From Akkermansiaceae bacterium (GTDB lineage: Bacteria; Verrucomicrobiota; Verrucomicrobiia; Verrucomicrobiales; Akkermansiaceae): a DNA stretch of 64,000 nucleotides. The translations under genes were made by a program, and so were the position numbers. Below are positions 45,955-50,516 of this stretch, in pieces (position 1 is the first letter of the stretch; each line of letters starts with the position of its first letter). The DNA is taken from the NCBI GenBank assembly GCA_026421245.1, contig JAPKDJ010000008.1:1-64000 (forward strand), in the 5' to 3' direction. Under the pieces are notes generated by a model. That model made no database searches, was not told the DNA's origin, and was given only the letters and a program-made list of their open reading frames with translations.

Positions 45955-46031
45955 CTGCTAGAATTTTTCTTATTGGGTGGACTGCTGGAAGGCGTCGCCG
46001 AAGGGATCGGAGGGGGGGTGAAAGGGGGGAG
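45955..46031 (+). repeat. Dispersed repeat A, copy 1
   Basis: The core is CTGCTA-GAATTTTTC, then TTGGGTGGACTGCTGGA, GGCGTCGCCGAAGGGATCGG and a G-rich end. It lies nine bases past the 3' end of the DUF1501 gene. Copies 2-4 are at 47456, 49599 and 50451, all in the same orientation. Confidence 0.75.
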
Positions 46032-46039
46032 TAAATTGA

Positions 46040-47413
46040 TTACCCGACCAGCTCGCGGATCGGCTTGATACCCGGATCGACGAGGAAGTTCGGGCGGCCG
46101 CTCGCGTCTTCCACCGTGGCGGTCGCGAGGTCGATGCCGAGATTGTGATAGAGCGTTGCAATCACTTCCTGGAACTTCACGGGCCGTTCGGCGGGTTCGT
46201 TGCCATGGCGATCGGTGGCACCGATGATTTGGCCGGTGTTCATTCCGCCGCCGGCCACGAAGGCAAAGTTCGCCTTCGGCCAGTGATCGCGGCTGTTGTT
46301 CTTGTTGATCTTCGGGGTCCGCCCGAACTCGCCCCACATCACGATTGAGACATCGTCCAGCATTCCTCGCTCGTGCAGGTCGGTGATGAGCGCGCTCAAG
46401 CCCTGATCGAGGAGCGGGAACTCCTCGCGGGAGCGCGGGAAGTTCATGCCGTCGCCGCCGTGCCAGTCCCAGCGGCTGTAGTTGAGAGAGACGACGCGGG
46501 CGCCGGCTTCGATGAGGCGCCGCGCCACGAGAAAGTTTCGAATCATCTTCGGCGCGCCATCGCGTTGATAGGCCGGATTGTTGAGTCCATAGCGTTCTGC
46601 AACCGCGGAGCGTTCATTCGAAATGTCGAGAGCCTTGGCGAGCTTGCCGTCCGAGAGAATTTCGAGAGCCTGCTGGTTGTAGGCATCGAGGCCTTCCATC
46701 TGTCCGGTGGTGTCGATCTCGCTGCGCAGGCCATCGATGGAAGAACGAAGCGCTTCGCGATCCAGGAGGCGGTCGAGTGTCATGCCGTTCAGGGTCATGC
46801 TCTTGGCGCGGGAATTGGGATCTTTGTCGACGAGGCCCATCGGGGCATGGGTGTTGCCGACGAAACCGCCCGTTCCGGCTTCTCCCCAAGTGCGATTGCC
46901 GGTCGGATACATCAGGGAAAGGTTGGCGGGCACCCCGGGTGTCTTGGCCCCCTGCAGCTTTGAGACATGAGCCCCGAAATTAGGCCACCCGCCGACCGGG
47001 GCCCGATCTCGCCGCTTGTGGCCGGTCATGCATTGGTAGCAATCGTGTGCGCCATCGGAGTCCGCGAGGGAGCGAATGATTGCGAATTTGTCGGCCATCT
47101 TCGCGAGGCGCGGGAAGAGTTCACAGATTTCGATTCCGGGGACATTGGTGCCGATCGGCCGGAACTCGCCGCGGATCTCGGCGGGTGCGTCGGGCTTGAG
47201 GTCGAACATGTCGAGATGCGACGGTCCGCCCGGAAGGTAGATGTTGATGACTGCCTTGTGCGAGGAGCCCGTCCCGGCCCGCGCTTCCATCCCTAGAAGC
47301 TGTCCCAACGACAATCCCCCTGCAGCCATTCCGCCGACCTTGAGAAAGTCGCGTCGCGAGTATCCGTCGCAGTGGCTGCGGGTCGGGTCGCGTTTTCCAA
47401 ACAGGTCAAGCAT
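46040..47413 (-). CDS. Tat-exported DUF1501 protein, repeat-flanked
   Basis: 457 aa with a twin-arginine signal (SRRDFLKVGG, residues 19-28). DUF1501 core motifs: INIYLPGGPSHLDMFDLKPD, IIRSLADSDGAHDCYQCMTG, RWDWHGGD and IVMWGEFGRTPKINKNNSRD. It differs from the DUF1501 protein at 33751 and belongs to the longer subgroup with a PANLSLMYP insert. Its usual PSCyt1/DUF1549 partner is absent. It sits alone between two copies of repeat A, and its base composition looks more GC-rich than the Mrp operon next door, so a separate arrival is possible. Confidence 0.93.
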   Translation of the reverse strand: MLDLFGKRDPTRSHCDGYSRRDFLKVGGMAAGGLSLGQLLGMEARAGTGSSHKAVINIYLPGGPSHLDMFDLKPDAPAEIRGEFRPIGTNVPGIEICELFPRLAKMADKFAIIRSLADSDGAHDCYQCMTGHKRRDRAPVGGWPNFGAHVSKLQGAKTPGVPANLSLMYPTGNRTWGEAGTGGFVGNTHAPMGLVDKDPNSRAKSMTLNGMTLDRLLDREALRSSIDGLRSEIDTTGQMEGLDAYNQQALEILSDGKLAKALDISNERSAVAERYGLNNPAYQRDGAPKMIRNFLVARRLIEAGARVVSLNYSRWDWHGGDGMNFPRSREEFPLLDQGLSALITDLHERGMLDDVSIVMWGEFGRTPKINKNNSRDHWPKANFAFVAGGGMNTGQIIGATDRHGNEPAERPVKFQEVIATLYHNLGIDLATATVEDASGRPNFLVDPGIKPIRELVG

Positions 47414-47455
47414 AAGGAGTATATCGCGGAAGGAAGGGGTGGTCTTTCAATTGAC

Positions 47456-47510
47456 TGCTAGGAATTTTCTTTTTGGGTGGACTGCTGGAAGCCGTCCTGC
47501 GGCGGCGAGT
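47456..47510 (+). repeat. Dispersed repeat A, copy 2
   Basis: CTGCTAGGAATTTTC, then TTTTTGGGTGGACTGCTGGA and a diverged CCGTCCTGCGGCGGCGAG end. It lies between the divergent starts of the DUF1501 gene (47413) and the deiodinase-like gene (47618), so it may carry or disturb their promoters. Confidence 0.75.
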
Positions 47511-47617
47511 TGATCGCTGGATTTCGGTGCAACTTCGAAACGCTCAGCCGGTTGAATCCTCGCCGCCCGGATTCATGTGTGGAGTTTGGGGGCGCCATCG
47601 GTTATCAACAAAAGATC

Positions 47618-49585
47618 ATGCTCGCGCTGCAAATACGACGAACCTTGCCTCTCGCTGCCATTTGGGGCCTTCTATGCCTCCCCCAAGTCGGAGCCCAGAA
47701 ATCTTCCGTTCAGGAAAATGAGGCCACGACTGTCGGAGGCGTGACGCCCGAAGCGATTCTTAAACGCCTGGGCGCTCGGCTAGAGCACGGAGTTTCCGTC
47801 GCTCAATTGAGTAACTACGCCCGCCACTTTACCGGAGTTGATGGCGATGCAGATGGGCGTCATTCCAAGGTGGAGTATATCGAGAACGGCAACTACCTGA
47901 CGCCACAGGCGCGGCGTGGGATATTCAACGCTGCCGATAGTGACCAGGACGGATTTGTGACGAAGGCGGAGTATATCCTGAATCGAATCATCACGGATGA
48001 GGCCAAGGCTATCGTCCAGGCCATGGATGACGACGGGGACGGCTTGGTACAGCGCGTGGAGTTCGTGAAGCATGCCAAGGCGAAACTGTCGGACGAGAAA
48101 CTCAGCGGGGCAGTCTTCGCTGCCTTGGACACCGATGGGGACGGAGCGCTCCGAGTTCCGGAATACCTTCGGATCTGGGGGCAATGGGCACGCACCGGTC
48201 GCAAGAGTCCCGCGCAACGACTGAGCAAGGCCTCTGGAGATCCGGGCGCGGCCACCAAGGAACAACCGGGGCGGACGCGGCCTGGTGGGGCGCGTGGTCG
48301 AGAGGGCGGTGGGCCTCCTCCAGGACGTCCCGGTGGTGGATTTGGACCATTCAGTGGAAACAGCGATCCGGTCCGTCTCAACCAAGCGGGATTGAAGATT
48401 GGCTCACCCTTGCCCGAGGTCACGATCGTTGACGCCGAGGGCAAAAAGTTTGAAACGGCCAGTCTCAAGGGCGCTTATTCGGTCTTGGTATTTGGTTGCC
48501 TGACCTGACCGCCCTTCCTGAAGAGTGTCTCCGGTCTGGAGACCATCTATCGTGACTACGCTCCTAAAGGTGTGCGGTTCTTCTTCGTCTACAAGACGCT
48601 GGCTCATCCCGAAAGCGACGGCTACCTCAATCCCCTGACCCTGGAAGAAAGGCTCCTGCATGTTCGGGAGGCTCAGCGGACCTTCAAGGGGGTAAGCATG
48701 CCCTGGCTTTGCGACAACATGTCGAACGAGTTGAAGAAGGCCCTAGGCGGATTGAATAATCCGGAGTTCCTCTTTGATCCCCAGGGAAAGATCGTCAGCT
48801 TGCGGGACTGGAGTTCTCCCAAGGATCTCCGGGCTGATTTGGTGAGGTTCGTTGGGGCGGTGACCACTCCCACTCGGGTCGAAGACTTGAATCTTGAGTT
48901 TGAAAAATCACCTCCTGTTGCTCCTCGGGGAGTGGTGCCGCGGATTAAGGTCCCTGCTGCCCTGGAGCCGGTCAAGGTGACCCCGAAAGAGAGCGGGGGA
49001 AGCCCCTACTATGCAAAGTTACGTGCTGAGGGGGACGATGAGCTCCTGAAGACCGGAGAGGGAACACTCTATCTCGGGCTCCACTTGGATCGCCTCTACA
49101 ATGTGCATTGGAATAATCTGGTCGCACCGATCGAATACGAACTCAGCGCGGCAGAGGGTACGATCATCTCTCCAAGGACCGGAAAGGGACCCAAGGTGGA
49201 GGCTGCCACAGATATCGATCCCCGCGAATTTTTGGTGAGCGTGCGGGGTGGCGAAGCGGCGAACCCATTACGCCTGATTGTGCGTTACTATGCCAGCAAC
49301 GATGAGGAGGGCTGGTGTAAATTAGTGACCCAGTCCTATGGAATCCACCTTGAACGGGATCGGGATGCTCGGGCCGTGCGAGCGCGCGAGTGGAGCGGGC
49401 CTCCGGGAGGGTTTTCGGTGGAGCGGTTGTTCCGCTTCGACAAGGATGGTGACGGCAAGGTCAGCAAGGAGGAGTTGCCCGAGTTTCTCCGCGGACGCAT
49501 TCTTGAGAGAATGGATGCCAACCAGGACGGCGTCATTGAGAAGAAGGAAGCCGAACGGATTTTTGGAGCTCCCGACGAGAATTGA
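47618..49585 (+). CDS. Deiodinase-like selenoprotein with EF-hands (TGA read as Sec)
   Basis: 655 aa if the TGA at 48506-48508 is selenocysteine. The ATG at 47618 opens a signal peptide (RRTLPLAAIWGLLCLPQVGA). Four EF-hand loops follow (DGDADG, DSDQDG, DDDGDG, DTDGDG), then a Pro/Gly-rich linker. The redox domain reads VLVFGCLT-U-PPFLKSV; iodothyronine deiodinases have FGSCT-U-PPF at their active site. After it come FFFVYKTLAHPESDG and WLCDNMSNELK, as in that family, and two more EF-hands (DKDGDG, DANQDG) at the C-terminus. A perfect hairpin with a GGUCU loop lies 24 nt after the TGA. It is probably an exported thiol/selenol redox enzyme; real deiodination is not implied. Confidence 0.85.
48527..48543 (+). 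promoter_or_regulatory. Candidate bacterial SECIS hairpin 2
   Basis: GTCTCC-GGTCT-GGAGAC is a perfect 6-bp stem. Its five-base loop GGUCU is the loop sequence known from the Escherichia coli formate dehydrogenase SECIS. The loop begins 24 nt after the TGA, inside the usual window. Confidence 0.8.
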
Positions 49586-49598
49586 TCGCAGACTTGAA

Positions 49599-49680
49599 CT
49601 ACTAGGAATTTGATATTTGGGTGGATTGCTTGAGGGCGTCGGCTAAGGGATCGGCGAGGGGGAAAAAGAAGAAAGGGGGC
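49599..49680 (+). repeat. Dispersed repeat A, copy 3
   Basis: CTACTAGGAATTTGATA, then TTTGGGTGGATTGCTTGA, GGGCGTCGGCTAAGGGATCGG and a G-rich end. It begins 13 bp after the stop of the deiodinase-like gene. Confidence 0.75.
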
Positions 49681-50450: not shown

Positions 50451-50516
50451 CTGCTAGGAAATTACTTTTTGGGTGGACCGCTTGAGGGCGCCGATCCGAG
50501 GGGAGAAAGGGGGGTG
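50451..50516 (+). repeat. Dispersed repeat A, copy 4
   Basis: CTGCTAGGAAATTAC, then TTTTTGGGTGGACCGCTTGA, GGGCGCCGATCCGAGGGGAG and AAAGGGGGG. It is followed directly by copy 2 of repeat B. Confidence 0.75.

Follow-up and report, generated by a model that had tools for sequence, protein, structure and literature searches.

Selenoproteins resembling the iodothyronine deiodinases were reported in bacteria in 2005 and 2008 (PMC1088965, PMC2398784). Their sequences have been known since 2005, and in the parts of the literature examined no function has been shown for them. A survey of 2021 (PMC9402790) depicts, from GOS metagenomes, a deiodinase-like selenoprotein fused with an EF-hand domain (Pfam13499; Figure 2B of that survey), and also a Prx-like selenoprotein fused with a DsbC domain, Pfam11412 (Figure 2D). 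The proton relay of the deiodinases (Dio) is described as Ser-Thr-Tyr-Glu-His-His (PMC11592359), and the proximal Cys of DIO1, at position −2, has been shown to bond with the active-site residue (PMC9141512).

We have analyzed a 64,000-nucleotide stretch of DNA (the window) containing a gene that almost certainly encodes a real, exported, selenium-containing redox protein of a Verrucomicrobia bacterium. With the bacterial deiodinase-like family (PMC1088965, PMC2398784; NCBIfam NF038285) it has in common a likeness to Pfam00837 and a bacterial SECIS element, but it scores 69.9 bits against the NF038285 cut-off of 250, and the family is listed as UxxC in PMC13188914 whereas the window protein has CxxU. 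With DIO1-3 (PF00837) it shares the place of the Sec, the T-U-PPF sequence, the later Tyr and His and a proximal Cys, yet this Cys is at −3 instead of −2, and the Glu and second His are absent. DIO1-3 are membrane anchored, whereas the window protein is predicted to be exported and is fused to EF-hands. As in the N-terminal domain of DsbD (PF11412), a beta domain of the family bears two Cys on a hairpin close to its C-terminus; here, however, it is fused to its possible partner, the similarity is weak and in the window copy one of the two Cys is Ser. The Prx-like fusion of the 2021 survey also joins a Sec-containing thioredoxin-like fold to PF11412, but it is U/CxxC and Prx-like, not deiodinase-like, with no EF-hands stated. 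The GOS fusion shares the Sec deiodinase-like domain and the EF-hand, and an extra conserved Cys is noted there, but in that part of the survey no host, domain order or DsbD-N-like domain is named. The present family adds to it the genomes, the SECIS, the Cys and Asp forms and an N-terminal EF-hand quartet. In the open-licence papers searched we found no deiodinase-like protein with both EF-hands and a DsbD-N-like domain, and no report of an in-cis reductase-partner architecture for such proteins. Given the reports of 2005, 2008 and 2021, the news is therefore the anatomy and not the existence of the deiodinase-like/EF-hand kind, of which ocean DNA had given a glimpse in 2021.

The gene, its in-frame TGA and the EF-hands

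The features of the locus are as follows.

47486..49596, + strand: putatively transferred block, 91.8% identical to a stretch of genome G250, another genus of the same family
47618..49585, + strand: selenoprotein gene, 655 amino acids with the TGA at 48506 read as Sec
47618..47695, + strand: predicted signal peptide MLALQIRRTLPLAAIWGLLCLPQVGA, judged by eye
47840..47875, + strand: EF-hand loop 1, DGDADGRHSKVE, residue 75
47936..47971, + strand: EF-hand loop 2, DSDQDGFVTKAE, residue 107
48026..48061, + strand: EF-hand loop 3, DDDGDGLVQRVE, residue 137
48128..48163, + strand: EF-hand loop 4, DTDGDGALRVPE, residue 171
48389..48856, + strand: deiodinase-like thioredoxin-fold domain
48497..48508, + strand: CxxU active-site motif Cys294-Leu-Thr-Sec297, Cys at −3 in 29/29 rows of alignment A1
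48506..48508, + strand: Sec codon TGA, residue 297
48527..48543, + strand: bacterial SECIS hairpin, 6-bp stem, loop GGUCU at 48533-48537
48956..49369, + strand: DsbD-N-like beta domain, residues ~447-584
49295-49297, + strand: Ser560, Cys in at least 90% of rows
49316-49318, + strand: Cys567, second position of the Cys pair
49439..49474, + strand: EF-hand loop 5, DKDGDGKVSKEE, residue 608
49514..49549, + strand: EF-hand loop 6, DANQDGVIEKKE, residue 633

The first-pass annotation had noted a TGA at 48506 within CLT-U-PPF, in a frame intact on either side, and both points stand. The frame 47618-49585 has a single internal TGA, at residue 297 of 655 in the sequence GCLT-U297-PPF, and is open on both sides of it; an ordinary ORF caller splits the gene into two. 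We rejected genetic code 4, where TGA is not a stop: of the 29 other long ORFs in the window, 8 end in TGA, and so does the selenoprotein gene itself. On comparing the gene with its 90% relative from Roseibacillus (L051) we obtained dN/dS = 0.29 before the TGA and 0.263 after it (own script), so that selection on the downstream half resembles that on the upstream half. The host assembly holds no further Sec-domain copy at E ≤ 0.001.

From the N- to the C-terminus the protein comprises a hydrophobic leader (many relatives also begin with one), four EF-hand loops, a linker rich in Gly, Pro and Arg, the thioredoxin-fold domain, the beta domain and two further EF-hand loops. The six loops are canonical 12-residue loops (Pfam EF-hand_1, 63.7 bits versus a cut-off of 25.4), confirming the earlier description of four EF-hands before and two after the Sec domain. 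That description had called the fusion unusual. The fusion is present, but another deiodinase-like/EF-hand fusion had been published in 2021 (PMC9402790). Using a strict pattern in 34 proteins, two loops were found after the Sec domain in 25, one in 4 and none in 5; L021 is the window protein, L022/L051 is one locus counted twice, and one no-loop protein holds unknown bases. Four loops before the Sec domain occur only in the window protein and L022/L051, with one loop in L055. By these counts, the C-terminal pair is what most proteins of the sample share, and the four N-terminal loops are an elaboration of the window's lineage.

SECIS, selenocysteine machinery and relatives

The hairpin GTCTCC-GGTCT-GGAGAC has a perfect stem. 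It had been placed 24 nt past the TGA; the hairpin is there, and 24 nt is the distance to the start of the loop, but the stem starts at 18 nt. The rules for bacterial SECIS elements as given in PMC13188914 are a loop of 3-9 nt, a stem of 4-16 bp, an early G, a distance of 16-37 nt and MFE ≤ −7.5, and the window hairpin lies within all of them (5 nt, 6 bp, GG, 24 nt, MFE −11.8 to −13.6). We compared 30 aligned TGA-form sequences, chosen for having the TGA and including the window. The loop is [AG]GU[CU]U (GGUCU, AGUCU or AGUUU) in 30/30, so that all obey the loop rule, and 23/30 obey the energy rule of −7.5 kcal/mol in a 39-nt window. Within the hairpin Ser is encoded by TCC in 18/18 rows and Gly by GGT in 21/21 rows that have those residues, and most of the surrounding codons vary. 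The fold energy of the window hairpin is no better than chance (z = −0.20 over 61 nt and −1.32 over 39 nt); being ordinary for the composition of this stretch, it was rejected as evidence of a SECIS. The signal above chance is the conservation.

Covariation in the hairpin is slight. The pair formed by the third positions of the Val and Glu codons is C-G in 22 of the 30 sequences, U-A in 4 and U-G in 4. Just 1 of the 6 pairs has changes on both sides, a number reached in 360 of 500 shuffles, and the covariation score is 0.180 in the true register versus 0.202 when the structure is slid by +1. A C.A mismatch is present in the stem in 12/30 sequences. The verified Cys forms at the Sec site (L048-L050, L058-L061 and L073) are without the hairpin. 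An Rfam scan of 48450-48650 gave four sub-threshold matches and no SECIS family.

The host assembly (4.32 Mb in 192 contigs, 93.5% complete) contains selA (479 bits), selB (299.5 bits), selD (387.8 bits) and tRNA-Sec (55 bits; called tRNA-SeC(tca) by ARAGORN). The genome check proposed in the first-pass annotation therefore found the machinery present in full. The host selD (L010) is itself a selenoprotein gene, with SSCGG-TGA-ASKLG, and this in-frame TGA indicates that the Sec trait is in use. A second check, of homologues at the TGA site, gave TGA or Cys in the relatives with the exception of one eight-member branch that has Asp. Sequence comparison shows that this TGA is read as Sec; the host possesses the complete machinery, and a bacterial SECIS follows a short way downstream.

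The host and Roseibacillus sp. ANT-131 (G250) are of one family, which places the host in the Verrucomicrobiales. In 386 genomes drawn from this order there are 34 close matches (E < 1e-20), and 27 of them (in 27 genomes, the window included) have exactly one TGA. Seven have none, G115:C18, G112:C21 and G154:C5 among them; the four that were read are three Cys forms and one frame-broken copy (G101). There are also at least 15 weaker one-TGA matches (E 1e-10 to 1e-6), and the counts given here cover the close ones. A selA match (E ≤ 1e-3) is present in 27/27 one-TGA genomes compared with 120/386 overall, an association with a hypergeometric probability of 2e-15 when kinship is ignored. In G199 and G124 selA is represented by fragments that lie under the cut-off. 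The three Cys forms read come from G071, which has a selA match, and from G210 and G287, which do not belong to the selA-positive set. In the genomes of L051, L052/L054, L055 and L056, selA exceeds the cut-off in three of the four. It was not found over the cut-off in the genome of L055 (G730), a Sec form; this genome has a tRNA-Sec (67.4 bits), so that the binned assembly may just lack its selA.

A phylum-wide draw gave matches (E ≤ 1e-20) in 10/387 genomes, all but the window's own being of the Cys or Asp form. G731 is a record of the Pirellulaceae, which belong to the Planctomycetota. In that phylum 8/392 genomes match: three have close Sec forms (G731 included), one has a Cys form and four have weaker matches with one TGA, three of which read GAIT-, GSFT- and GSYT-U-PPF. 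The close Sec form is thus in both groups, but these draws turned it up rarely beyond the order of the window.

Several relatives depart from the common form. In L062-L069, all from one genus and with frames of 734-848 amino acids, DLTD or similar replaces CLTU/CLTC and the C-terminal Cys pair is lacking; this is apparently a non-redox branch of the family. The locus L024/L053 has TGC at the Sec site and a frame break just after it, and its SECIS hairpin is intact. Either Sec was replaced by Cys recently and the SECIS is a remnant, or the assembly is wrong in a run of C. In view of the TGC together with the break it was rejected as a clean Cys form and kept out of alignments and counts. In L054 (4594-7170) a single frame joins an upstream PQQ-type beta-propeller to the Sec domain, and the same genome (G729) has L052 as a second copy.

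The block 47486..49596 is the only match between the 64-kb window and a 19-kb stretch of G250, and the SelA proteins of the two hosts are 65% identical. Recent horizontal transfer is therefore the simplest reading, and we consider it probable that the gene was transferred between genera recently. No match to the gene was found in plasmid and phage collections. A dispersed repeat with the core CTAGGAATTTTCTTTTTGGGTGGACTGCTGGA occurs in the window at 45960 (with 2-3 mismatches), 47454-47496, 49598-49640 and 50454-50485 on the + strand, delimiting three successive single-gene blocks that include the selenoprotein gene. At ≤2 mismatches the genome has 45 copies, compared with 2 for a reversed-pattern control; they frequently occur in twos or threes on a contig, spaced ~1-5 kb apart and for the most part sharing one orientation. 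The transferred block sits between two copies, the left of which is cut short at the block start as judged by eye; the G250 stretch contains none. An integron attC reading of the flanking repeats was rejected, there being no attC-like ends by eye. The adjoining block, delimited by its own repeats, encodes a DUF1501 protein with a TAT-type signal (46040-47413, − strand; over the NCBIfam cut-off and just under that of Pfam). PSD1/PSCyt and DUF1501 genes adjoin L051, other genes adjoin L052, L055 and L056, and no shared gene neighbor was found across the loci scanned.

The deiodinase-like domain and the C-terminal beta domain

The protein alignments A1, A3 and A4 have 29 rows. L051 and L022 are one locus, which was entered a single time in A1-A4. 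L038 (with unknown bases) and L040, L042 and L044, near-duplicates of retained rows, were kept in the DNA alignment A2 only. Searching all PDB sequences with the 29-sequence family profile gave just three matches at E ≤ 0.01, to Dio3 (2.1e-7), Dio2 (5.3e-4) and ResA (1.6e-3). This supports the kinship implied by the earlier observation that the TGA is at the same place as the Sec of the iodothyronine deiodinases. With a single sequence, phmmer put ResA first (1.6e-5) and Dio3 next (2.4e-5). The Pfam families AhpC-TSA (27.8 versus a cut-off of 26) and Redoxin (27.5 versus 26.6) are both passed. T4_deiodinase (PF00837) is below its cut-off of 27, with 22.2 bits, or 21.2 for the whole protein, and is matched at E ≤ 5 by 25/29 members. 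An AlphaFold2 model (pLDDT 89.9) superimposes on the core of mouse Dio2 with 2.2 Å over 178 columns and TM = 0.75 by target length, at Foldseek rank 25. By Foldseek E-value chains of DipZ and ResA stand above Dio2, ResA over ~152 columns.

At the positions of the Dio proton relay (PMC11592359) the family has Cys-Thr-Tyr-Leu-His, with the second His absent. Three of the six residues are kept, and Thr, Tyr and His are invariant in 29/29 rows. The statement that the downstream half retains the later motifs of the deiodinases is thus correct for Thr, Tyr and His, but not for Ser, Glu and the second His. The alignment with Dio covers the Tyr, the His-Pro and the stretch that follows, and from His-Pro to the next helix there are fewer residues than in Dio. 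As only three of the six relay residues remain, thyronine deiodination is not implied. The Cys of CxxU occupies the place of the relay Ser, and is invariant both in the 29 rows and in L058-L061 and L071-L073. By analogy, Cys294 at −3 would be the obvious counterpart of the proximal Cys that in DIO1 bonds with the active-site residue (PMC9141512). Neither the CxxU pair nor the DsbD-N-like domain was in the first-pass annotation.

The conserved beta domain that follows has the motifs HWNNL and DPREFL and, near its end in most members, two Cys separated by six residues. In DsbD a Cys pair sits on a hairpin of the N-terminal domain. Pfam DsbD_N (PF11412) matches 12/29 of the domain sequences at E ≤ 5, the best at 1.6e-4, and a Pfam search with the window's own C-terminal domain gave no match. 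A model of the isolated domain has pLDDT 94.4, and its top three Foldseek matches are the N-domain of Escherichia coli DsbD, weakly (E 0.009, TM 0.39-0.48, rmsd 6-9 Å); NEAT (E 0.010) and adaptin-ear domains score almost as well. A search of PDB sequences with the domain profile did not find DsbD. From sequence and model, what the domain most resembles, weakly, is the N-terminal domain of DsbD. Two Cys are present in its last 45 residues in 34/36 Sec/Cys forms and in 0/8 Asp forms; since the Asp forms are one clade, their joint loss of Cys counts as a single event. The two exceptions are the window protein, which has one Cys (Ser560, Cys567), and L047, which has none. Our inference is that this domain serves the Sec site as its electron partner or docking face. 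For the window copy such a relay would be incomplete at best, which is the main weakness of the electron-partner reading there.

A proposed mechanism and its alternatives

We consider that this is a genuine exported Sec protein with Sec297-Cys294 chemistry, a DsbD-N-like relay and extracytoplasmic Ca2+-binding EF-hands, with a probability of about 0.7. After export, Sec297 would act as the nucleophile of the deiodinase/peroxiredoxin-like thioredoxin-fold domain. Cys294 would resolve the oxidized selenium by forming a selenenyl-sulfide, the part played from −2 by the proximal Cys in DIO1. The DsbD-N-like domain, with its Cys pair on a beta-hairpin in the model, would dock on the Sec site and pass electrons to it. 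As one Cys of the pair is Ser in the window copy, the relay there would be one-Cys or would use an outside reductant. Outside the cytoplasm, Ca2+ bound to the EF-hands would serve folding, docking or retention at the surface. A disulfide, a peroxide or a similar oxidized compound is the more likely substrate, rather than a thyronine.

The protein might instead be a selenoprotein of the general TlpA/ResA or AhpC-TSA kind, its likeness to deiodinases being convergent around T-U-PPF. AhpC-TSA and Redoxin pass their Pfam cut-offs where T4_deiodinase does not, and ResA is above Dio2 by Foldseek E-value and first by single-sequence phmmer. Yet with the family profile Dio3 is ahead of ResA by nearly four orders of magnitude, the Tyr, His-Pro and following stretch align with Dio, and 25/29 members match PF00837 (E ≤ 5), so we regard this reading as fairly unlikely. 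We think it quite unlikely that the protein is a self-contained, calcium-gated selenium electron relay outside the cytoplasm, in which the DsbD-N-like domain would feed the CxxU Sec center in cis, Ca2+ would set the docking, and the reaction would be reductive dehalogenation or peroxide reduction.

A true reductive dehalogenase or deiodinase of halogenated aromatics, using Sec as the animal deiodinases do, would be in keeping with Dio3 and Dio2 as the best solved relatives by profile and with the invariant Thr, Tyr and His of the relay (29/29). However, relative to the Dio relay (PMC11592359) Ser has become Cys, Glu has become Leu and the second His is missing, and the segment from His-Pro to the next helix is shorter, making this very unlikely. 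The last alternative is that the TGA is a stop, giving two ORFs or a decayed gene with the downstream half expressed from an internal start or untranslated. The mechanical ORF list does give 47477-48508 and 48572-49585, and TGA is an ordinary stop in the window. But the TGA is kept in 27/34 close matches, synonymous sites after it are frozen, dN/dS is similar on its two sides, the Cys forms L058 and L073 keep one continuous frame, and a split would cut the active site. We find this extremely unlikely.

An exported, Ca-stabilized Sec oxidoreductase is what we take the protein most likely to be, as judged from its sequence. With a candidate built-in reductant, a resolving Cys that never varies and members that naturally carry Sec, Cys or Asp, the family provides a concrete way to test its role. 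The same family offers a route to how the chemistry of the animal deiodinases began.
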